Below, in pieces: positions 20,633-32,421 of a DNA stretch of 39,255 nucleotides (its first letter is position 1; every line of letters starts with the position of its first letter). Location of the stretch: positions 1 to 39,255 of the forward strand of contig CAMCGZ010000022.1 of NCBI GenBank assembly GCA_945874535.1. The letters run 5' to 3'. Below the pieces are notes generated by a model. That model saw only the letters and a list, made by a program, of their open reading frames with translations, was not told the origin of the DNA and searched no databases. This DNA comes from Bdellovibrio sp. ZAP7 (GTDB lineage Bacteria; Bdellovibrionota; UBA1018; CAIMNF01). Position numbers and translations under genes: made by a program.

Positions 20633-21331
20633 CTAGATTCGAGGAACACCCCAGTTTTCGAGGGTTTCCCTCTCTTCCAGACGGTTTTTCACCTTCTTGT
20701 AGCGCGCACCGGCCTTGCCTTCCACACTTGCCCGACACTCATCCCAGGTCCGATGACGCCCGAGCTTCCCACCGACCCAGCTCAAGTACACCGGCTCGAA
20801 CTTTTCGTCGGTCCGGAAAGAAATCGGGTAGTTTTCAAATCCTCCAGAATAAAGCTCCACCGGCTCATTCCGTGAGAACCGCACGGCGATCTGGTCTGTC
20901 CGTTCATTGACCTCGCTCCCGGCATGCCCCTTCACCAACTCGTACTTCAACCGGAAACCCAGACCTGTCAGGACTTCCTGGCCTTTCAGAATTTTCTCCC
21001 AAAGATCGCGGTTCTTCACGTCCTCACCCGCCCGGGTCTTCCAACCCTGGGTGGACCAGTTTCTGAGATTCTTCTCGGCACCTTCCAGAACGTACTTGGA
21101 ATCGGAAATCACCCGGAGCTCGCGTGACGCACTTTCAGAAGAGAAACGAAACACCTCCTGAAGCCCCCTGTAGAACCCGAAGAGCTCCATCCGGTTATTG
21201 GTGGTCGCCGGTTCAGAGCCACCCCACTCCCTGACCCCCACCCCGGGGATCGAAAGGATGAGTCCCCAGCCCCCCGGGCCGGGATTCTGGGAGCAAGCAC
21301 CATCCGAGACCAAAACCCATGCAGTATTCAA
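20633..21331 (-). CDS. rnhA: ribonuclease HI with a C-terminal viroplasmin-like hybrid-binding domain
   Basis: The 232-residue product cleaves RNA in RNA-DNA hybrids. The RNase H fold covers about 1-153 with catalytic Asp10 (SDGAC), Glu49 (NNRMELFG), Asp77 (VISDSKYV) and Asp146 (NERTDQIA), plus His136. Residues about 181-228 (VYLSWVGGKLGRHRTWDECR, then EGKAGARYKKV) match the caulimovirus viroplasmin/hybrid-binding domain that in eukaryotic RNase H1 and several bacterial enzymes sits at the N-terminus; here the order is reversed. The start is TTG, supported by AAAGGAG six bases upstream. The gene is divergent from the heme operon. Confidence 0.93.
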   Translation of the reverse strand: MNTAWVLVSDGACSQNPGPGGWGLILSIPGVGVREWGGSEPATTNNRMELFGFYRGLQEVFRFSSESASRELRVISDSKYVLEGAEKNLRNWSTQGWKTRAGEDVKNRDLWEKILKGQEVLTGLGFRLKYELVKGHAGSEVNERTDQIAVRFSRNEPVELYSGGFENYPISFRTDEKFEPVYLSWVGGKLGRHRTWDECRASVEGKAGARYKKVKNRLEERETLENWGVPRI

Positions 21332-21375: not shown

Positions 21376-21392
21376 TGACACAACCATGACAC
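21376..21392. repeat. TGACAC direct repeat in the rnhA-hemA divergent promoter region
   Basis: TGACAC occurs at 21376-21381 and again at 21387-21392, 11 bases apart, on one face of the helix. The first copy is part of a perfect -35 hexamer (TTGACA, 21375-21380), but no acceptable -10 lies 16-18 bases downstream. It could be a regulator site for the heme operon. A TAAGGT -10-like box, identical to that proposed for rnpB, is at 21412-21417. Confidence 0.3.
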
Positions 21393-21432
21393 TCGGACCC
21401 CTGAATCAGGTTAAGGTGTTCGTTGAATCCCT

Positions 21433-22335
21433 ATGGAACTTCACATTGAGGAATACCGAGCCCACTCGCCTCTGGAACCGAAATCACCGGTTTTGGAGAT
21501 CCGTACGTGTCAGCGTACCCTGAAAATCTCGGCCCGTCCCTTGGAAATCGAGGGCTCTCCCAGACGCCGGTTTTCCGGAGCGGATGCTTACGAATTCCTG
21601 CTGCGTTTCGCATCCGGCCTCGAGAGCGAAATCAAGGGTGAAACCGATGTGTTCGGCCAAGTGAAGACTGCCTTCCGTGATTTTTCGACCGCACATGCCG
21701 AACTGGCGGCCGAACTTCAATCCGTGTTCCAGACCCTGTTCGAGGATACGAAAGAAATCCGGGCCCAGTACCTCCAGGGAATCGGCGGAAACACCTACGG
21801 AGCACTGGCTCGCCGGGTGCTCGATCCCCACCCCTCGCACCGTGTGCTTTTGCTCGGCGCAGGCCAGATTGCGAAGAGTGTAGCCCCCTATTTCGCAGAC
21901 TCGGAACTCAAAGTTTTCAATCGTTCACCCGAACGGCTGATGGAACTCCAGGTTTCATTGCACCAAAAGGGTTATGCGGGCGTGACGATCCTCGCGGCCG
22001 ATTCGGACCTCACAACCGAGATTGCCTCGGCAGAGATCATCCTCCTGGCCACACCGGTCGGATCTCCCCTCGATGCCCTGGTGCTCCGTCACCGCAGTTC
22101 CGGAACCCGCATTCTCCACCTGGGGGGCCGCGCTGAAGATCTGAATCTGCCCGAAAATGAGGCGGATCTCCTCACCCTTTCCGACCTGTTCGAATTGGAA
22201 AAAGAGCAGAGCACGCTTCGCGAAAAGAAGATTGCCCAGGCCATGGATGCCTGCCGTCAGCGCGCGCGTCTGCGCTCCTTGGCCCGATCGATCCACATTC
22301 ATCACGGCTGGGAAGACCTGGCCTACTTCAACTGA
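21433..22335 (+). CDS. hemA: glutamyl-tRNA reductase, compact form
   Basis: The 300-residue product would reduce glutamyl-tRNA to glutamate-1-semialdehyde, the first step of the C5 heme pathway. Motifs: EIRTCQRTLKI with the catalytic Cys26, ASGLESEIKGETDVFGQVKTAF (residues 60-81), and the NADPH-binding LLLGAGQIAKS at 139-149. It is about 120 residues shorter than usual: some 24 residues are missing at the N-terminus and the C-terminal dimerisation domain is absent. ATG 21433 has no clear ribosome-binding site. Its position directly before hemC, hemB and hemL supports the assignment. Either it is a trimmed but active enzyme or it depends on a partner. Confidence 0.85.
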   Translation: MELHIEEYRAHSPLEPKSPVLEIRTCQRTLKISARPLEIEGSPRRRFSGADAYEFLLRFASGLESEIKGETDVFGQVKTAFRDFSTAHAELAAELQSVFQTLFEDTKEIRAQYLQGIGGNTYGALARRVLDPHPSHRVLLLGAGQIAKSVAPYFADSELKVFNRSPERLMELQVSLHQKGYAGVTILAADSDLTTEIASAEIILLATPVGSPLDALVLRHRSSGTRILHLGGRAEDLNLPENEADLLTLSDLFELEKEQSTLREKKIAQAMDACRQRARLRSLARSIHIHHGWEDLAYFN

Positions 22336-22338
22336 GCC

Positions 22339-23844
22339 ATGTTGCCGATATTGAGACTCGGAACCCGCAAATCACTCCTCGCTGTGGCCCAGAGCTCCTG
22401 GGTGGCCCGTGAGGTGGAACGCCTGAATCCCGGTGTCAGCGTCGAACTGGTGGGCATCGAGACCCGCGGAGATGTGATCCTCGACAAGCCTCTGAGTCAA
22501 ATCGAAGGGAAAGAGTTTTTTACAGCGGAACTGGATCACGCACTCCTCGACGGATCGGTGGACTTCACCGTGCACTCGATGAAGGACCTGAGTATCGAGC
22601 GCCCGCCGGCATTCTGCTTGGCCGCCGTGCCGGAACGCGAGCTCGCGCACGACGTGATCCTGTTTCATGAATCGGTGACAGATCGGATCCGGAACGGACT
22701 CCCGGTCAGAATCGGAACCTCGTCTCCGCGGAGATTGACCTTGATCCCGGAGTTCTTGAAATCGGCGTTGCCACGGTTCCGTCCGGACGCCGAGCCTTCA
22801 CTTCAGTTCATCGAAATCCGCGGGAATGTGAACACCCGCCTCGGCCGGGTTCACGAGCCTGAAGGATACGAGAGAAAACTCGACGGAGTGGTTCTGGCAT
22901 TCGCGGGACTCGAACGCCTGGCCAAGGATCCCTTCGCATCGATGGAACTTCGCCGCCTGCTCCTTCGCACCCGGATGATGGTTTTGCCACTCAAGACCTG
23001 CCCGTCGGCTCCCGCTCAGGGCGCACTGGCCATCGAGACCCGGAGCGACCGTCCGGAAGTGATTGCGTGCATTGAGCGCCTTCACCACCCGGGGACGCTC
23101 GATGCAGTCCGTGCCGAACGCGGCATCTTGGAGGAATGGGGAGGCGGCTGCCATCAGAAGCTCGGTGCGAGTCGTTTGGCTTCGGGCGTGCTCTTCATCA
23201 AGGGAGTCAAACCTGACGGAACCCGCGTGGAAGAAACCCGTGGAAACCCGAGGCCGCAAGACATCGATTTCACCCGGATCGAAGCCGGAGATGTGTTCGA
23301 CTTCGCGGCAGCACCGACCGGGCCGCGCGAAAAAGCCCTGCTGGAAAGCGAAGCCCCGGTCTTCATCGCCCACACCCGTGCCTTCGATCATCTCGAGCAC
23401 TCCGCAGCCTTGAGAGGATCTGCAAAAAGGATCTGGGTCTCGGGCACGCAAAGCTGGTTCAAGCTGGCAAGGCAAGGGCTCTGGATCGAGGGTTCGCTCG
23501 ATGGGCAGGGCTTCGAGTCGATGGGACCTTTCGTGAGGAAGGCATTGCTCGGTTTTGAAGGAAAGGACTTCACCTTCCTGAGTCACTCTCAGAGTCCGCC
23601 TGCTCCGGGCACGGTTTTACTGTCGACTTACACCCACCAGTTCCGTGAAGTTCCGCGCAAATTCATCGAAAATGACCGCCTGTACTGGAGTTCCGGCTTA
23701 CCCTTTCAGGAACTTTGGAGTAAGGTGGGAGCCGAAGTTTTCAAGGGCAAAACCCATGCATGCGGCCCCGGACGGACCGCTCAATTGATCAAGGAGAAGT
23801 TGGCCGAAATCGGGATGGACCCGGTCATTCTTTCCGTGGAGTAG
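22339..23844 (+). CDS. hemC-hemD: fused hydroxymethylbilane synthase / uroporphyrinogen-III synthase
   Basis: The 501-residue product is longer than HemC alone. Residues 1-~325 are porphobilinogen deaminase: RLGTRKSLLAVAQ, VHSMKDL with the catalytic Asp83, RIGTSSPRRL, and the dipyrromethane-cofactor Cys271 in GGGCHQKLGA. Residues about 338-501 look like a divergent HemD: RIWVSGTQSW, TVLLSTY, LYWSSGLPFQEL and THACGPGRTAQLIKEKL match the pattern of uroporphyrinogen-III synthases. This would explain the absence of a separate hemD in an otherwise complete set. The ATG is 3 bases after the hemA stop. The HemC call is firm; the HemD call is a strong inference. Confidence 0.9.
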   Translation: MLPILRLGTRKSLLAVAQSSWVAREVERLNPGVSVELVGIETRGDVILDKPLSQIEGKEFFTAELDHALLDGSVDFTVHSMKDLSIERPPAFCLAAVPERELAHDVILFHESVTDRIRNGLPVRIGTSSPRRLTLIPEFLKSALPRFRPDAEPSLQFIEIRGNVNTRLGRVHEPEGYERKLDGVVLAFAGLERLAKDPFASMELRRLLLRTRMMVLPLKTCPSAPAQGALAIETRSDRPEVIACIERLHHPGTLDAVRAERGILEEWGGGCHQKLGASRLASGVLFIKGVKPDGTRVEETRGNPRPQDIDFTRIEAGDVFDFAAAPTGPREKALLESEAPVFIAHTRAFDHLEHSAALRGSAKRIWVSGTQSWFKLARQGLWIEGSLDGQGFESMGPFVRKALLGFEGKDFTFLSHSQSPPAPGTVLLSTYTHQFREVPRKFIENDRLYWSSGLPFQELWSKVGAEVFKGKTHACGPGRTAQLIKEKLAEIGMDPVILSVE

Positions 23845-23847
23845 ACC

Positions 23848-24828
23848 ATGTATCCTGAAGGCTATCGAAGGATCCGACAGAGTCCGGTACTCCGGAACCT
23901 GACCCGTGAAGTGACGATCGATCCGCTGAAACTGATTCAGCCGCTTTTCGTGGTGGAAGGAATTCCCAACAAAGAACCGGTCCCGGGCCTGACCGGCGTT
24001 TACCGCGAGACTCCCTTTACTCTCATCAAGCAGATCGAGCGCGATCTCGAGAAAGGCGTGAAGAGCTTTTTGCTTTTCGGTGTCCCGGGCGCGAAAGCGG
24101 ACCGTCACTTCGATTCCTCTTTCACTGCGAATCAGATCGCGGCGATCAAGAAGCGTTTCGGACAGGAGGTGTTCCTCGCGGTCGATGTGTGCTTGTGCTC
24201 TTACACGACCCACGGCCATTGCGGCATCCTGAACGACTCGCACGATCATGTGATGAACCATGAAACGGTCGAAGCTCTTGCAGACGCAGCCCTTGCTTTT
24301 GCACGGGCGGGAGCAGATTGCGTCGCTCCGAGCGACATGATGGACCATCGCATCGCCGCCATCCGCGAAAAACTGGATGCGAACGGATTTCATCGAACCC
24401 TGATCATGAGCTACTCGGCCAAATTCCACTCCGGATTTTACGGCCCCTTCCGTGCTGCGGCGGATTCCGCCCCGAAGGGCGATCTGAAGATCAAGGACCG
24501 TGCGACCTACCAGATCGACCCGGCCAACCCATCCGATGCCTACCTCTCGAGCGTTCGCGACATGGAAGAGGGTGCCGACATACTGATGGTCAAGCCCGGT
24601 CTGCCCTACCTCGATGTGATCCGCGATCTTTCAGACAGAATTCCATTGCCCTGGGCGGTGTATGAGGTCAGTGGAGAATATGCGGCCGTGGAGCTCATGG
24701 CCGAAAAGGGTCTGATCGACGGACGCAGAGCCCACTTGGAGTCGTGGACGGCATTTTTCCGTGCCGGCGCGGAAATGATCATCACTTACGGCGCGCGCCA
24801 TGCGCGAGATTGGATGGAGAGCAAATGA
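23848..24828 (+). CDS. hemB: delta-aminolevulinic acid dehydratase (porphobilinogen synthase), zinc type
   Basis: The 326-residue product condenses two aminolevulinate molecules into porphobilinogen. The Schiff-base lysines are Lys192 (SYSAKFHSGFYGPFR) and Lys249 (MVKPGLPYLD). The metal loop DVCLCSYTTHGHCG contains Cys115, Cys117 and Cys125, the zinc-binding triad, rather than the Asp-rich magnesium version. It begins 3 bases after the hemCD stop and overlaps hemL by 4 bases. Confidence 0.97.
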   Translation: MYPEGYRRIRQSPVLRNLTREVTIDPLKLIQPLFVVEGIPNKEPVPGLTGVYRETPFTLIKQIERDLEKGVKSFLLFGVPGAKADRHFDSSFTANQIAAIKKRFGQEVFLAVDVCLCSYTTHGHCGILNDSHDHVMNHETVEALADAALAFARAGADCVAPSDMMDHRIAAIREKLDANGFHRTLIMSYSAKFHSGFYGPFRAAADSAPKGDLKIKDRATYQIDPANPSDAYLSSVRDMEEGADILMVKPGLPYLDVIRDLSDRIPLPWAVYEVSGEYAAVELMAEKGLIDGRRAHLESWTAFFRAGAEMIITYGARHARDWMESK

Positions 24829-26120
24829 AACACGATCAATCACAAGCCTTGTTCGAACGCGCTAAACTCACGGCTCCGGGAGGAGTCCACTCCCCTGTAC
24901 GCGGTTTCCGCGGAGTGGGTGGAGCACCCGTATTTGTCGAGTCGGCTCAAGGAGCCTGGCTCCGGGATGTGGATGGCAACTCTTATCTCGACTTCTGCAT
25001 GAGCTGGGGCCCCCTGCTCTTCGGTCACCAGGATCCGGAAATCAAAAGCGCCATCGAAGGGGCGCTTTCCAGAGGATGGTCCTACGGAACAGCAGAGCGT
25101 TACTCGCTCGAGTTCGCCGAAGACCTGATCCGGGCGATTCCGCATCTGCAAATGGTGCGCTTCGTGAGTTCCGGCACCGAGGCCGTCATGTCGGCGATCC
25201 GATTGGCCCGTGGATTCACCGGAAGGGACTGGATCCTGAAGTTCGACGGCTGCTACCACGGCCACGTGGACTCTCTCCTGGTGCGGGCGGGATCGGGGCT
25301 CGCGGAAATGGCCTCCCCCGACAGCGCAGGAATCTCGGCAGCCACCGCGTCGGAGACTCTTGTACTTCCCTTGGATGACGAATCGGCTCTCGAACAGGCT
25401 TTCGAACTTCATGGCGCCAAACTCGCAGCCGCCATCATCGAACCGCTTCCTGCCAATAACGGCCTGTTGCTCCAGCGCAAAGAATTCCTGCAAAAGCTCG
25501 CCGCGCTTTGCAAAAAGCACGGCGCACTCCTCATCTTCGATGAAGTGATCTCCGGCTTCCGCACCGCACTCGGAGGCATGGCGGAACTCACGGGCATCAC
25601 CCCCGATCTCGTAACCTACGGAAAGATCATCGGGGGCGGAATGCCGGTGGGAGCATACGGCGGTAAAAAGGAAATCATGGAAATGGTCGCCCCCTCGGGC
25701 CCCGTTTACCAGGCAGGAACCCTTTCAGCGAATCCGGTCGCCATGCAAGCCGGCCACGCGATGCTGAGAAAAATCCAGCGTGAGAACCCTTACCCGCATC
25801 TGGCCTCGATGGGCGAGTGCCTGGTGGGAGGACTTCAGAAGTTGGCCGATCAGCATCTGCCTTTCCCGGTTTCGATCGCATCCTTCGGATCGATTTCGTG
25901 GATGGTCTGCGGTGAAACCCGCCCGGTCCGTCGGATCGAGTCCATTCCCGGCAGTCAGAAAGCCAATTATGCAAAAATCTTCCACGCACTGCTCGATGAG
26001 GGTGTGTACTTCGCTCCGAGCGGGTACGAGGTCGGATTTCTGAGCACGGCTCACACCGGAAAAGATCTGGACTTCGCCATGGCGGCGGCGCAAAAAGCGT
26101 TCAAAACCGTGCGGGGCTGA
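24825..26120 (+). CDS. hemL: glutamate-1-semialdehyde 2,1-aminomutase
   Basis: The 431-residue PLP enzyme converts glutamate-1-semialdehyde to 5-aminolevulinate, completing the C5 route with HemA. Motifs: SPVRGFRGVGG near the start, RFVSSGTEAVMSAIRLARG, CYHGHVDSLL, LIFDEVISGFR and the PLP Lys267 in TYGKIIGGGMPVGAYGG. The frame is open further upstream, but the ATG overlapping the hemB stop (ATGA, 24825) gives the family N-terminus. The sensor kinase gene follows after 7 bases. Confidence 0.97.
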   Translation: MKHDQSQALFERAKLTAPGGVHSPVRGFRGVGGAPVFVESAQGAWLRDVDGNSYLDFCMSWGPLLFGHQDPEIKSAIEGALSRGWSYGTAERYSLEFAEDLIRAIPHLQMVRFVSSGTEAVMSAIRLARGFTGRDWILKFDGCYHGHVDSLLVRAGSGLAEMASPDSAGISAATASETLVLPLDDESALEQAFELHGAKLAAAIIEPLPANNGLLLQRKEFLQKLAALCKKHGALLIFDEVISGFRTALGGMAELTGITPDLVTYGKIIGGGMPVGAYGGKKEIMEMVAPSGPVYQAGTLSANPVAMQAGHAMLRKIQRENPYPHLASMGECLVGGLQKLADQHLPFPVSIASFGSISWMVCGETRPVRRIESIPGSQKANYAKIFHALLDEGVYFAPSGYEVGFLSTAHTGKDLDFAMAAAQKAFKTVRG

Positions 26121-26127
26121 GGTTGGC

Positions 26128-27096
26128 ATGAGCCGGGGTGATTTCATCAAAAAGCCGGATCGGAGATTCAAGCTCCTGGTACTGACCCAGGGACTCTGGA
26201 TGACCACGCTCTTGATCCTGGCGCTTTGGTGGGGGACCTTGCTTCTGCAACAGGGCGAAGAAATTGCCGGGCTCGAATCCCAATTGGGAATGGCACCGAA
26301 CAAAGTCCAAACCCGGCTCGACAAAACCACGCGGATGATCGCAGCCGAATCCGGGGCCTTCATCCTCCTCATCCTGATCACCAACGGGGTGCTTTTGTTT
26401 TTTTTCGCACGGGACACGCGCCGATCGAGGAGCCTCGAGGCTTTTTTCGCTTCAGTGACTCATGAGCTCCGGACTCCGCTCACGAGCATCCGCTTACAAG
26501 CTGAGGCACTCCAGGACATCGAGGACAACCCCAAGCACACGCCTTTCTTGAACCGTTTGCTCGAGGATGTGGGCCGGCTCGAGGGTCAGGTCCAGCAAAC
26601 ACTCGAACTCGCACGAATCGAGGGGGGCGGTGGCCTCACTCTCCAATCGGTCCGGATCAGGAATTTTATTCAGACCCGGGTTCTGCCTCATTACTCGCTG
26701 AATGAGGGAAGGATGAGACTTTCTTCGGATATCGAAGAATCGTTCATTCAAGCCGATCCTTCGGCACTGATGGTGATTTTGCGAAACACCCTCGATAATG
26801 CGATCAAGTACACTCGGAACGCCCCCACCCTCCTCGAACTGAAGGGGCGTCCGGAAGGCTCCGGGTACCGGCTCGAGATGCTCCATCGGAATTCGACTTT
26901 CACAGGAAATGCCGAGCAACTGGGCAAATTGTTTTATCGAGGACCTGAGTCCCAGGGTGCCGGTGTGGGCCTGTACCTCATCCGGACCTTGATGGAAAAG
27001 TGCGGAGGGAAGGCCGAGTACACCCCCTCGGAATCCAATTTCCTGACCCGTTTAGAATTCAAGATCGATCCGGGGAGCGACCACCATGGGGCATAA
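26128..27096 (+). CDS. sensor histidine kinase inside the heme operon
   Basis: The 322-residue membrane kinase has transmembrane segments at about 17-41 and 76-93 around a short periplasmic loop of about 35 residues. The H box VTHELRTPLTS has phospho-acceptor His112, and the N box RNTLDNAIKYT is normal. The G2 box reads GAGVGLYL (277-284) for GTGLGLYI. The G1 motif (DxGxG) is not recognisable: the expected place reads EMLHRNSTFTG (250-260). ATP binding may therefore be altered. It starts 7 bases after hemL with GAGG five bases before the ATG and overlaps the regulator by 11 bases. The tiny sensor loop suggests a membrane or membrane-protein signal; heme or precursor sensing is an inference from position. 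Confidence 0.9.
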   Translation: MSRGDFIKKPDRRFKLLVLTQGLWMTTLLILALWWGTLLLQQGEEIAGLESQLGMAPNKVQTRLDKTTRMIAAESGAFILLILITNGVLLFFFARDTRRSRSLEAFFASVTHELRTPLTSIRLQAEALQDIEDNPKHTPFLNRLLEDVGRLEGQVQQTLELARIEGGGGLTLQSVRIRNFIQTRVLPHYSLNEGRMRLSSDIEESFIQADPSALMVILRNTLDNAIKYTRNAPTLLELKGRPEGSGYRLEMLHRNSTFTGNAEQLGKLFYRGPESQGAGVGLYLIRTLMEKCGGKAEYTPSESNFLTRLEFKIDPGSDHHGA

Positions 27097-27787
27097 GATT
27101 CTCCTGCTCGAAGACGAATGGAATGTGGGCTCCACCCTGACCGAGCGCATGAAGCTCGAGGGCTATGAAACCCGCTGGTGCACATCCGCCGAAGAAGCAC
27201 TCGCCGCCATAGAGTCCGGACACCCGGACCTGGCGCTCCTGGATGTCCAACTGCCCGACGGGAGCGGGTTTGATGTGGCCCGGAGCCTGCGTTACCGCTC
27301 TCCTCGAACGGCTATCGTGTTCCTCACCGCAGCCGGAACCCCTGAAGACCGGATCCACGGTCTCGAGCTCGGGGCCGAAGATTACATCGTGAAACCCTTT
27401 CATACGAAAGAGCTCCTGCTCCGGGTCCGGAATGTGCTGAAGCGCATGGAGTACATCCAGGAAGTCCGCGAGCCCGCACCGGGCTCGGTCTTGATCGGAA
27501 AGGCGAGAGTCGACTTCCAGGAATACCTTTTGGAAGAGTCCGGACAGACCCACCGCCTCTCACACAAGGAGTGCACCCTGCTGAAGCTCCTTCACGACAA
27601 GCGCGGTCAGGTGGTCAGTCGGGATGAGATCCTGGATCTGGTTTGGAGCGAGGATGAATATCCGACCCCCCGGACGATCGACAATTTTGTCATGAGACTC
27701 AGAAAAATGATCGAACCCGACCCAGAGAACCCCACCGTCATCCGGAGTGTTCGCGGAGTCGGTTACCTGATGGAGAAATCGAAATGA
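27086..27787 (+). CDS. OmpR-family response regulator inside the heme operon
   Basis: The 233-residue product has a receiver domain (1-~120) with the acidic pair Glu9/Asp10, phospho-acceptor Asp53 (LLDVQLPDGSG), Thr81 and Lys103 (IVKPF), and a winged-helix DNA-binding domain (~130-230: HRLSHKECTLLKLL, TPRTIDNFVMRLRKMIE, IRSVRGVGYLM). All catalytic residues are intact. It overlaps the kinase by 11 bases and hemE by 4 (ATGA), so its synthesis is tied to the heme enzymes. Target promoters are unknown; self-control of the heme operon is the natural hypothesis. Confidence 0.95.
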   Translation: MGHKILLLEDEWNVGSTLTERMKLEGYETRWCTSAEEALAAIESGHPDLALLDVQLPDGSGFDVARSLRYRSPRTAIVFLTAAGTPEDRIHGLELGAEDYIVKPFHTKELLLRVRNVLKRMEYIQEVREPAPGSVLIGKARVDFQEYLLEESGQTHRLSHKECTLLKLLHDKRGQVVSRDEILDLVWSEDEYPTPRTIDNFVMRLRKMIEPDPENPTVIRSVRGVGYLMEKSK

Positions 27788-28839
27788 ACCCGACTCTGTA
27801 CGCTTCCGCAGTGGCCAAGAACAATCTGTCCCGTCCTCCGGTCTGGTTCATGCGTCAAGCCGGCCGATACCACTCGCATTACCAGAATCTCAAAAAGAGT
27901 CATTCTTTCATGGATCTTTGCAAGGTTCCGGAGCTTGCGGCCGAAACCACTTTCGGTCCCATCCGGGATTTCGATTTTGATGCTGCAATTCTGTTTTCTG
28001 ACCTTCTGTTTCCTCTCGAGGTGCTCGGAATGGGACTCGAATACTCTCCGGGTCCGAAGCTCGGTTGGCACTTGCACGGCACGACCGACCTGAAGAAGCT
28101 GAACCCGGAGGGAAAATCCACTACCGAACTCGTGAACGGTCTCGCTTACCAGGGAGAGGCTCTGAAGCTCATCCGCGCGGGGCTGGACTCCTCCAAGTCC
28201 TTGCTCGGCTTTGTGGGTGGACCGCTGACCCTTTTCTTTTACGCGGTGGAAGGCTCGCATCAGGGCGGGCTCGAGCTTGCCAAACGCGGAATCGTGGACG
28301 GACGCTATGACGGGTTCTTGAAGTTGATGGTTCCCTTCTTGATCGAGAACATGAGTCTTCAGGCGCGGAGCGGCGCCGATGCCGTGGCGATCATGGACAC
28401 TTGCGCCGGTGAGATCGATCCGGTTCTTTACCGGGAGGCGATAGTCCCTGCCCTGAAAGAAGTGATGGAGGGTTTCAAGGCGCGGCACCCGAATCATCCC
28501 ATCGTATACTATTCAAAAAAAACCGACCGCGCCCACTGGCAGCATTTGGAAGGGCTCCCCTTCGAGTGCCTGGGAATCGACTGGCACCCCGAGCTGGCAC
28601 CGGTCCTCGGTGAATTCGGTTCGAAATGGGCGATCCAGGGCAACTTCGATCCGAACTTGATGCTCCTTGAGCCGGAAGCGTGCATGAAAGAGATCGAGAA
28701 GTTTTTCGCTCCGATTCTCGCTCTTCCCCGCTCGGCCCTGAAAGGCTGGGTCTGCGGCCTCGGCCACGGAGTGATCCAGTGGACGCCCGAACAGAATGTG
28801 AGGAATTTTCTCCGCTATCAGCGGGAGATCTTTGCGTGA
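27784..28839 (+). CDS. hemE: uroporphyrinogen decarboxylase
   Basis: The 351-residue product converts uroporphyrinogen III to coproporphyrinogen III. Motifs: the substrate-binding PPVWFMRQAGRY near 18-29, AAILFSDLLFPLEVLGMG with the catalytic Asp, GFVGGPLTLFFYAVEG with the conserved Tyr, and GLGHGVIQWTPEQNVRNFL with the conserved His near the C-terminus. The ATG overlaps the response-regulator stop and the TGA overlaps the GTG start of hemN. Confidence 0.97.
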   Translation: MNPTLYASAVAKNNLSRPPVWFMRQAGRYHSHYQNLKKSHSFMDLCKVPELAAETTFGPIRDFDFDAAILFSDLLFPLEVLGMGLEYSPGPKLGWHLHGTTDLKKLNPEGKSTTELVNGLAYQGEALKLIRAGLDSSKSLLGFVGGPLTLFFYAVEGSHQGGLELAKRGIVDGRYDGFLKLMVPFLIENMSLQARSGADAVAIMDTCAGEIDPVLYREAIVPALKEVMEGFKARHPNHPIVYYSKKTDRAHWQHLEGLPFECLGIDWHPELAPVLGEFGSKWAIQGNFDPNLMLLEPEACMKEIEKFFAPILALPRSALKGWVCGLGHGVIQWTPEQNVRNFLRYQREIFA

Positions 28840-30194
28840 TCCACCAGGCTCTCCTCGAGAAATACAACGTTCCCGGACCGCGGTATACCAGTTATCCCAC
28901 GGTTCCCTATTGGGAACGGAATCCCACCACCGAAGAGTGGCTCGACTCGCTCCGGAACGCACTCCAGTCATCCGAAGGTGCGGCTATTTACGTGCACATT
29001 CCATTTTGTGAATCCTTGTGCACCTATTGCGGCTGCAACAACCGCATCACCCGCAACCGATCGGTGGGAATGCCTTACGTTCAAACTCTTCTCAAGGAGT
29101 TCGCCTTGTATCGGGAGCGCTTGCAGACCCGCGTTAAAATTCCTCTGGGTGAGCTCCACCTCGGTGGAGGCACCCCGACCTTTCTGGCCCCCGATGAGCT
29201 GGCAGTCCTGCTCCGGGGCATTCTCGATCACTGCACTCCGGTGAACGATCATGAGTTTTCGGTAGAAGTCGATCCTCGTGTCACCTCCGGTGAACATCTT
29301 GCCCTACTCCGGGAATTCGGTTTCCGCCGGATCAGTCTCGGCATCCAGGATTTCGACCCCAAGGTCCAGGAAATCGTTCATCGGATCCAATCGGTGGAAC
29401 AAGTCCGGACCGTGACTGCCGAAGCCAGAAAGCTCGGCTTCGACAGTGTGAACTACGATCTGATTTACGGTTTGCCCTTTCAGACAGTCGAAAGTGTGGA
29501 GGGAACCATCCGGCACGTGTCGGCGCTCCGTCCCGATCGCATCGCTTTTTATTCCTATGCCCATGTTCCCTGGATCCGCGCAGGTCAGCGCCGTTTCACA
29601 GAACTGGACCTGCCGGATGGAGCAGAAAAAAGACGCCTTTACGAGCGAGGACGGGAACTGCTCGAACAGGAGGGATATGTCGAAATCGGGATGGATCATT
29701 TTTCTCTGAAATCCGACGCCCTTCACACCGCTACTCTCGCCGGCGGACTGCACCGAAACTTCATGGGGTACACGGCCCGTCATGTGAATCCGATTCTGGC
29801 ATTGGGCGTTTCCGCCATCGGTGATGCTTGGACGGCATTCGCCCAGAATGAGAAGCTGCTCGAAACTTATTGCGAACGGGTCGAACGGGGCGAAATTCCG
29901 GTTTCACGCGGACATGTTCTCGATCCGGAGGATCTTGTACTCCGGAAGCACATCTTGAATCTGATGACCCGGATGGAAACCTCCTGGGAAACCGCTGAAA
30001 TGAGAACTCCCTACCTCGAGACCGTACCGAGCAGACTGTCCGAGCTCGAGAAAGACGGACTGATCCGGATTTCTGAAAATCGCTGTACAGTGCTCGAGTC
30101 CGGAAGACCCTTTCTGCGGAATATTTGCATGGCCTTCGATGCGCGACTCGAAAGAAAGGCTCCGGGGATACGTCTGTTCTCGAGCACGGTTTGA
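28836..30194 (+). CDS. hemN: oxygen-independent coproporphyrinogen III dehydrogenase
   Basis: The 452-residue radical-SAM enzyme converts coproporphyrinogen III to protoporphyrinogen IX without oxygen. The cluster motif is YVHIPFCESLCTYCGCNN (CxxxCxxC followed by the extra Cys), the CGCN form typical of true HemN rather than HemW. Other motifs: LHLGGGTPTFL, EVDPR and FRRISLGIQDFD. The start is GTG 28836, overlapping the hemE stop (GTGA). Upstream in-frame codons lie inside hemE and do not resemble HemN. The sequence MDHFSLKSDAL and the C-terminal helical domain are as expected. Confidence 0.96.
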   Translation: MIHQALLEKYNVPGPRYTSYPTVPYWERNPTTEEWLDSLRNALQSSEGAAIYVHIPFCESLCTYCGCNNRITRNRSVGMPYVQTLLKEFALYRERLQTRVKIPLGELHLGGGTPTFLAPDELAVLLRGILDHCTPVNDHEFSVEVDPRVTSGEHLALLREFGFRRISLGIQDFDPKVQEIVHRIQSVEQVRTVTAEARKLGFDSVNYDLIYGLPFQTVESVEGTIRHVSALRPDRIAFYSYAHVPWIRAGQRRFTELDLPDGAEKRRLYERGRELLEQEGYVEIGMDHFSLKSDALHTATLAGGLHRNFMGYTARHVNPILALGVSAIGDAWTAFAQNEKLLETYCERVERGEIPVSRGHVLDPEDLVLRKHILNLMTRMETSWETAEMRTPYLETVPSRLSELEKDGLIRISENRCTVLESGRPFLRNICMAFDARLERKAPGIRLFSSTV

Positions 30195-30204
30195 GGGTGC
30201 CCCC

Positions 30205-31473
30205 ATGATCGGACGTCTGGATCCCAACCACCGCGAAGTGACAGTGATCGGAGCAGGCATCAGCGGCCTTCTTGTCGCATATACGCTCAAGAAGCGTGGA
30301 TTCAAGGTTCGCGTGTTCGACTCCGCATCCCGCGCTGGTGGCCTGATTGAAACCCGCACCACCGCTTTCGGGCCTGCTGAAACCGCGGCCCACAGTTTGA
30401 TGGTGAATCCGGACGTGTCGGCTTTTTTCTCAGAGCTCGGGATCGAACTCGAAGCCGTACATCCGGAGTCCAAAGCCCGGTTCATTTACCGGAATGGCAA
30501 AATGCGGCGTTTTCCTCTCACTTTCTTGGAGACACTCCGTACGATTTGGCGTTTTTTCTCTAAGCCCGCCCACCCCATTGATCCGACCCGTGCCACACTG
30601 GCAGAGTGGGCCCGAGCCCACCTGGGAGAGCCGGTTCTCAAGAACCTACTCGCTCCTTTTGTGACCGGTGTCTACGCTGCCACTCCCGAGGAACTTCGAT
30701 TGGCGACCGCGTTTCCGTCCCTGGTCCCGTCGGATCCCCGGCGCTCTCTCTTTTGGAATTTTTTGGAAGCCCGGAGAAAGCCGGGCCCGAAGAAGACCCG
30801 CCCGAAAATGATGACTCCGAAGGGTGGCATGGAATCGGTGATCCTCAGGCTTCAAGCCGTGCTCGGCCCGGACTTGGTTTTAAATCAACCGATCCAGGAA
30901 CTTCCGGAAGTCCCGAACCTGGTCGTGTGCGTTCCACCCCCGGAGCTCGCCCGCTTGATCCAAAAGCACGACCCGGCATCCGCTTCTGCGTTGAGATCAG
31001 TGAGTTCGTCGCCCTTGGTGACCGTCACGGCATTTGCGAAGGGCACTGACTTCCGGAACGGTCCCCCCAAAGGAGTCGGGGTGTTGATCCCGAGAAATGA
31101 AGGGCTCCGGATCCTCGGAGTGCTCTTCAATTCGAGCAGCTTTTCGGGTCGGGTCCTCCACCCCGGGACGGTGTCGATGACGGTCATGCTTGGGGGGACC
31201 ACCGACCCCGGAGCCTTGAGGCTCGGCGATGAGGAGATCACCGGTCTGATCGTTCAGGAACTCGGCCTCTTGCTTGGCTTCCAGGGAAACCTTCTCCACC
31301 GGGAGATCACACGCTGGGATTCGGCCATCCCCCTGTACTCGGGCACCCTCGACGGTGTCAGGGGACTGTTATCAAAGGGGTTTTTCTCTAAACAGGGAAG
31401 GATTCTGTTTACCAATTATTCCAAAGAGGTTTCCATCCGGGGAATGATCGACACCCTGAGACTCCTTTCCTAG
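30205..31473 (+). CDS. hemY: protoporphyrinogen oxidase, HemY type
   Basis: The 422-residue FAD enzyme oxidises protoporphyrinogen IX. The N-terminal dinucleotide fold reads TVIGAGISGLLVAYTLKKRG, followed by SRAGGLIETR. TPKGGMESVI near 200-210 and the C-terminal GILFTNYSKEV-like region (GRILFTNYSKEVSIRG) match HemY. HemY is often oxygen-dependent while HemN is not, so this pathway mixes both modes. ATG 30205 is supported by GAGGG 7 bases upstream. It is the last gene of the operon; no ferrochelatase follows. Confidence 0.9.
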   Translation: MIGRLDPNHREVTVIGAGISGLLVAYTLKKRGFKVRVFDSASRAGGLIETRTTAFGPAETAAHSLMVNPDVSAFFSELGIELEAVHPESKARFIYRNGKMRRFPLTFLETLRTIWRFFSKPAHPIDPTRATLAEWARAHLGEPVLKNLLAPFVTGVYAATPEELRLATAFPSLVPSDPRRSLFWNFLEARRKPGPKKTRPKMMTPKGGMESVILRLQAVLGPDLVLNQPIQELPEVPNLVVCVPPPELARLIQKHDPASASALRSVSSSPLVTVTAFAKGTDFRNGPPKGVGVLIPRNEGLRILGVLFNSSSFSGRVLHPGTVSMTVMLGGTTDPGALRLGDEEITGLIVQELGLLLGFQGNLLHREITRWDSAIPLYSGTLDGVRGLLSKGFFSKQGRILFTNYSKEVSIRGMIDTLRLLS

Positions 31474-31593: not shown

Positions 31594-32421
31594 ATGAAAG
31601 TGTCACTGTTAGTTCTTTTGACCACGCTCACCATCAGCCAAAGCGCGCTTGCGCAATCGAGGAGTGCTCGCCACCCCAAAGCTCCCCTGTCGGTTTCAGT
31701 ACGCGAAGTGACAGGTGAATATGAAATAAACCAAGGCGAAGTGTCGATCTATCCGACCCCGGCTCCAAACCCGGGAACCAAGCCGAACACCGGTGGCGCC
31801 TACCCGACGCCCACCCCTTTTGTCGATCAGCTGCCGCCATTCCCCGGCTCGGATCCGACCAATCCGAATAATCCCAACAACCCGTACCCTTATCCCAACA
31901 CCAATCCACCGAACCCGAATCAAGTCACCCTCGATCACTTGATCACTCTCGGCAGCAAGGTGTGGGACTTTGTGATCAATAACAAACCCACCACCACCTA
32001 CCAGACCCTGAAGGCCTCGGTCGTTCCGGCCGGGATCAGCAGCTGGACCCAGCTTCGTGGCTGGTCCAAACCGATTGCTAAGGTTTATCGCGTGGAGTTC
32101 AAGAACATCTACGGCAAGTTTTCAGGAAGCTTCGACTACCGCATCACCTTCGTCTACGGTGGAAGCTTCAACGGCAAGGGCAAGTACATCGGACAAATCT
32201 CGTTCGTACCCGCCAACGTCAAGCTCCACACCGATCGTTCCCTGGACGTGAAGGCAGAATTGCTCGAGCCTCTCAACTTCGGAACCGAGGAAGATCCGAT
32301 TGCGGCAGCCCAGCTGCAGATCACCTGGACTTCCCCGACCACCACCCGTTACCAGCTGAACTCGGTGGACTTGTTCCTCTACGCCACTGGCGAGATCCAG
32401 AATCTCACCGATGGCAACTGA
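31594..32421 (+). CDS. secreted protein with a Pro/Asn-rich linker, unknown function
   Basis: The 275-residue product has a clear signal peptide (hydrophobic core from about residue 4, cleavage after SALA near 20). Residues about 50-110 are low-complexity, rich in Pro, Asn, Thr and Tyr (PNNPNNPYPYPNTNPPNPN), probably a flexible linker. The remaining part (about 112-275) is predicted beta-rich (FSGSFDYRITFVYGGSFNGKG, SLDVKAELLEPLNF, ATGEIQNL). I do not recognise the domain. AGGGG lies 6 bases before the ATG. The end overlaps the speB start by 11 bases, an unlikely partner in function. Confidence 0.85.
   Translation: MKVSLLVLLTTLTISQSALAQSRSARHPKAPLSVSVREVTGEYEINQGEVSIYPTPAPNPGTKPNTGGAYPTPTPFVDQLPPFPGSDPTNPNNPNNPYPYPNTNPPNPNQVTLDHLITLGSKVWDFVINNKPTTTYQTLKASVVPAGISSWTQLRGWSKPIAKVYRVEFKNIYGKFSGSFDYRITFVYGGSFNGKGKYIGQISFVPANVKLHTDRSLDVKAELLEPLNFGTEEDPIAAAQLQITWTSPTTTRYQLNSVDLFLYATGEIQNLTDGN

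Follow-up and report, generated by a model that had tools for sequence, protein, structure and literature searches.

HssRS and ChrAS, which are likewise two-component systems concerned with heme, control heme efflux or detoxification and are not known to lie within a biosynthetic operon. HemKR, to our knowledge, has been studied essentially in Leptospira only. The L. interrogans pair (Hklep/Rrlep) lies between hemL and hemE, the L. biflexa pair is encoded outside the hem locus (PMC2266917), and the same linkage in Bdellovibrio bacteriovorus has been mentioned as data not shown (Louvel 2008, PMC2266917). L. biflexa HemK kept its function when its periplasmic loop of 32 residues was exchanged, whereas the membrane part was needed (PMC2266917). 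Phosphorylated HemR binds TGACA-N6-TGACA (PMC11426443), and in Leptospira it activates the hemA operon and represses hmuO. ALA, not iron, switched the L. biflexa HemK, and residue T102 was needed for this response (PMC11426443). Stimulation of the HemK phosphatase by ALA or a derived porphyrin has been demonstrated in L. biflexa only, and heme itself has not been told apart from ALA or other intermediates as the Leptospira signal. Deletion of hemKR in L. biflexa had little effect on hemA transcription in standard medium (PMC11426443), indicating that other regulators act too, and hemKR also influences iron-responsive transcription (PMC11426443).

The window, which is the whole stretch of 39,255 nucleotides of Bdellovibrio DNA that was analysed, contains a close-packed heme operon, hemA-hemC-hemB-hemL-kinase-regulator-hemE-hemN-hemG, on the + strand at 21433-31473, as assigned by open reading frames (ORFs), Pfam and NCBIfam. 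Its features are as follows.

21376..21391, + strand: hem-box TGACA-CAACCA-TGACA, predicted HemR operator; exact match to the published L. biflexa HemR box
21412..21417, + strand: predicted -10 element TAAGGT, 20 nt after the hem-box (phased TAnnnT)
21433..22335, + strand: hemA, glutamyl-tRNA reductase, short (300 aa); Pfam GlutR_N 6.9e-11, NCBIfam hemA under cut-off
22339..23844, + strand: hemC extended at its C terminus, probably a hemCD fusion; TIGR00212 above cut-off in the N-terminal part
23848..24828, + strand: hemB, porphobilinogen synthase; ALAD 4.8e-114
24825..26120, + strand: hemL, glutamate-1-semialdehyde aminomutase; NF000818 565 bits
26128..27096, + strand: HemK ortholog, two-TM histidine kinase; Pfam HisKA 6.5e-17, HATPase_c 2.6e-8
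26884..26895, + strand: H253-R-N-S codons replacing D-x-G of the kinase G1 ATP-binding box (alignment)
27086..27787, + strand: HemR ortholog, OmpR/PhoB-type response regulator; Pfam Response_reg 1.1e-24, Trans_reg_C 1.2e-22
27784..28839, + strand: hemE, uroporphyrinogen decarboxylase; URO-D 3.2e-77
28836..30194, + strand: hemN, oxygen-independent coproporphyrinogen III oxidase; TIGR00538 above cut-off
30205..31473, + strand: hemG/hemY-type protoporphyrinogen oxidase; TIGR00562 above cut-off

The preliminary description had placed a kinase and an OmpR-type regulator between hemL and hemE, and this was borne out by ORFs and Pfam. The pair sits between the end of hemL (26120) and the start of hemE (27784), with a 7-nt gap after hemL, an 11-nt overlap of kinase and regulator and a 4-nt overlap of regulator and hemE; the hemL start ATG likewise overlaps the hemB stop. 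The operon had also been called complete, which is not strictly so, since it has no separate hemD gene and hemH is located on another contig of the genome (G000:C4:78895-79905). The missing hemD is probably fused to hemC, whose L. interrogans counterpart is annotated as a bifunctional hemCD. The hemC extension comprises about 190 residues without a Pfam match and is probably a diverged hemD. The start position given for hemG is a selected one. The start codon of hemA is uncertain, and many orthologs begin nearer the hem-box. A gene for an RNase H that carries an additional Cauli_VI-type domain (20633-21331), divergent from hemA in many relatives, shares with hemA the intergenic region that holds the hem-box. 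A proline-rich ORF after hemG (31594-32421), probably encoding a secreted protein, is conserved in the genus and has no NCBIfam match.

Sequence comparison indicates that the pair is the HemKR (Hklep/Rrlep) two-component system, orthologous to HemK and HemR of Leptospira. In a search of 72,556 plasmid records, the window regulator matched the L. interrogans regulator best, with 45.9% identity, and the window kinase matched the L. interrogans kinase in a profile comparison with a probability of 100% and an E value of 4.6e-60. A single tree, built from hem-linked pairs only, holds the window and the Leptospira pairs. The L. interrogans locus (NZ_CP020413.2, L110) has the order hemCD-hemB-hemL-HK-RR-hemE-hemN-(DUF5683)-hemG and a hem-box at L110:4302-4317. 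Assignment of the pair to NCBIfam equivalogs (PhoR, PhoB, CreB/CreBC, QseC, RpaB and others) was rejected, as all scores were far under the cut-offs, and a PDB sequence search with the pair retrieved generic kinases and regulators only. The regulator resembles PhoB/OmpR-class activators in its domain architecture and in a direct-repeat operator with an 11-bp period upstream of the -10 element, but it differs in lying far under the equivalog cut-offs of RpaB, CreB, PhoB and others.

Like Leptospira HemKR, the window pair has two TM segments flanking a short loop, the same phospho-acceptors and phosphatase Thr, and the TGACA-N6-TGACA operator before hemA; with the L. interrogans pair it also shares its place between hemL and hemE. 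It differs in a family-wide change of the kinase G1 box and in a predicted regulon of about one site. A further difference is that no heme oxygenase of the PF01126 family was detectable in the window genome, and the hmuO repressor arm of Leptospira therefore has no visible target here. A regulator pair inside a heme biosynthetic operon had been presented as novel. That claim cannot be upheld, because the known HemKR of L. interrogans had been missed and the Bdellovibrio linkage had already been mentioned (PMC2266917). The additions made here are that the operator and its phased promoter are conserved through the phylum and outside it, that the predicted regulon has a single site and that the G1 change is specific to the family. 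The locus of B. bacteriovorus strain kdesi (L173), hemA-hemC-hemL-kinase-regulator-hemE-hemN-hemG-hemH, shares with the window the order hemL-kinase-regulator-hemE-hemN-hemG and an exact hem-box before hemA; it differs in a divergent hemB, in the presence of hemH in the cluster and in a -10 region TAAACC instead of the strict TAnnnT.

The kinase was searched in 58 relative genomes, and the fetched regions were scanned with all operon proteins. In order/class loci of sufficient length, the order hemL-kinase-regulator-hemE was kept essentially throughout, at kinase identities as low as about 30%, and the exceptions were contig-edge cases, e.g., L030, where hemL was undetected. Loci sampled from further families of the phylum had the same order. 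This recurrence across order, class and phylum indicates that the arrangement is not due to chance, and comparison of relatives favours linkage, with the pair staying with the hem genes rather than at unrelated loci. The hemE gene was found in 46 of the 58 genomes, all 46 of which also have a kinase ortholog (in G050, the match is partial, split at contig ends and on another contig). The 12 genomes without hemE also lacked the kinase. This joint absence is supportive but is not independent proof, since the two genes are adjacent and one deletion or one missing contig may account for both.

The exact TGACA-N6-TGACA sequence occurs once in the window, about 40 bp upstream of hemA, and twice in the whole window genome. 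Of the 34 order/class loci in which the DNA upstream of hemA could be read, 33 have an exact hem-box there, and the remaining locus has a single mismatch. In dinucleotide shuffles, exact boxes averaged 0.015 and never exceeded 1, versus the 33 observed. When a first set of loci was aligned on the box, TAnnnT was found at exactly +20 in 27/32 boxes. The phasing was then checked on boxes from other, independent loci, where TAnnnT was present at +20 in 28/41 and at any other offset in at most 7. The composite of hem-box and phased -10 matched 36 times in the 58 genomes, versus 3 times for a reversed-pattern control. The composite occurs once in the window genome, indicating that the predicted high-stringency regulon is essentially the hem operon itself. 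A generic promoter scan of the operon region was negative for sigma-70 sites, as expected if the hem-box stands in for the -35 element. In many relatives, the hemA ATG lies about 33 nt after the hem-box, near the expected transcription start; this position suggests that their hemA mRNA may be leaderless or nearly so.

The second exact hem-box of the window genome (L070:1501-1516; G000:C10:17157-17172) overlaps a possible start codon of the heme O synthase gene (ctaB), which is divergent from a SCO1-coxB cluster. Its sequence is identical in two sister species only, and it may be a chance occurrence; reversed-pattern controls gave an expectation of at least one exact hem-box per genome by chance. 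This site was set aside as a regulon member, as it has no phased -10, overlaps the start codon and is within the chance expectation.

Hydropathy indicated two hydrophobic segments in the kinase, at about 14-35 and 67-97 across orthologs, and a loop of about 30-35 residues between them that is kept across orthologs. At the membrane edges, residues W34, R69, M70 and E74 were invariant in the order alignment. The phospho-acceptor H112 and T116 of the kinase and the phospho-acceptor D53 of the regulator were also invariant in the alignments. T116 (His+4) is the counterpart of the phosphatase residue T102 of L. biflexa HemK. Sensing inside the membrane, as proposed earlier from the short loop, would fit the Leptospira results, because exchange of the loop in L. 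biflexa kept the function (PMC2266917).

The N box and G2 box of the kinase are intact. The G1 box reads H-x-N-(S/A) instead of D-x-G in 13/13 genomes of the window's family, a change fixed across kinases with 36-91% identity to the window protein, and the Asp is kept by nearly all other orthologs, in a count that takes in redundant loci. In GHKL proteins, the Asp of the G1 box D-x-G-x-G contacts the adenine of ATP. With His in place of this Asp throughout the family, canonical autophosphorylation therefore cannot be assumed. Within the kinase, conservation is highest in the HisKA region (81% mean identity). A test for relaxed selection on the ATP domain was negative; the conservation of this domain relative to HisKA was 0.604, versus 0.612 in a neighbouring family. 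Compared with two sister species, dN/dS was about 0.05 for both the whole kinase and the ATP domain, a rough ratio with synonymous sites near saturation. Because purifying selection is strong and relaxation of the ATP domain does not exceed that in the neighbouring family, the kinase with the changed G1 box is, on this evidence, functional in some way.

It is highly probable that the pair regulates its own heme operon. The orthology, gene order, operator, promoter phasing and conservation are observed. The autoregulation suggested in the preliminary description is strongly supported by the HemKR orthology, by the exact box with its phased -10 and by the occurrence of a single such promoter, all features of sequence. 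Weighing against it are the His in the kinase G1 box, the slight effect of hemKR deletion on hemA transcription in L. biflexa and the lack of a detectable PF01126 heme oxygenase in the window genome. Phosphotransfer, DNA binding, the direction of control and the signal are those that we infer from Leptospira. A dimer of phosphorylated HemR would occupy the TGACA-N6-TGACA direct repeat (21376-21391) and bring RNA polymerase to the -10 element located 20 nt further downstream, and hemA-hemC(D)-hemB-hemL-hemK-hemR-hemE-hemN-hemG would be activated. Build-up of ALA or of a later porphyrin would turn HemK into a phosphatase, and the operon would be shut down. HemK would sense this signal via its membrane segments, not via its short loop.

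Other readings were weighed against this one. A passenger role, in which a general two-component system lies in the operon by chance and regulates unrelated genes, is very improbable; the position of the L. biflexa pair outside the hem locus does show that linkage is not strictly required, but the linkage is conserved across the phylum and beyond, and the cognate operator lies before the same operon and is rare elsewhere. It is unlikely, though less so, that the pair senses a non-tetrapyrrole cue, such as oxygen, redox state or iron, matching heme supply to respiration. Such a cue would agree with the effect of L. biflexa hemKR on iron-responsive transcription (PMC11426443) and with the second exact hem-box at the heme O synthase gene start beside the SCO1-coxB cluster. 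However, it was ALA and not iron that switched L. biflexa HemK (PMC11426443), and the second box is within chance expectation, has no phased -10 and is found in two sister species only.

The G1 change allows a further, tentative reading, which is possible but not favoured. In the window's family, autophosphorylation may be altered or lost, and HemK may act mainly as a signal (porphyrin)-gated phosphatase of HemR. A different kinase or a small donor would then phosphorylate HemR. Alternatively, nucleotide binding in the pocket may be altered. The replacement of D-x-G by H-x-N-S/A in all 13 family genomes over the whole 36-91% identity span, the retention of the phosphatase residue T116 and the high conservation of the HisKA region (81%) are consistent with such a change, whereas the ATP-binding domain that is not relaxed (0.604 vs 0.612; dN/dS of about 0.05) and the intact N and G2 boxes argue against it. 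This reading is compatible with autoregulation by HemKR as to operator and target and differs from it on signal flow.

HemKR is also found beyond the phylum. A scan of genome contigs detected the pair with hemE in Leptospiraceae, in six Verrucomicrobia MAGs and in two MAGs titled Gammaproteobacteria, with an exact hem-box in 5/6 of the Verrucomicrobia loci and 2/2 of the 'Gammaproteobacteria' MAG loci. The six Verrucomicrobia loci (L154, L156, L158, L160, L167 and L170) have kinase-regulator-hemE-hemN near hemA and/or a hem-box; hemB and hemL were undetected in these clusters. In both the kinase+regulator tree and the hemE tree, which are midpoint-rooted with modest support in places, the Verrucomicrobia and the two 'Gammaproteobacteria' MAGs grouped within the window's side of Bdellovibrionota, with Leptospira on the opposite side; the MAG labels may be wrong. 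Block transfer of the hem operon is a reasonable reading suggested by these trees, not a proof.

The pair, operator and promoter geometry shared by Bdellovibrionota, Verrucomicrobia and the two 'Gammaproteobacteria' MAGs suggest a general, transferable design for heme feedback. The family with the changed G1 box raises the question of whether HemK can work without canonical ATP binding. The spread of HemKR makes Bdellovibrio a tractable test organism.
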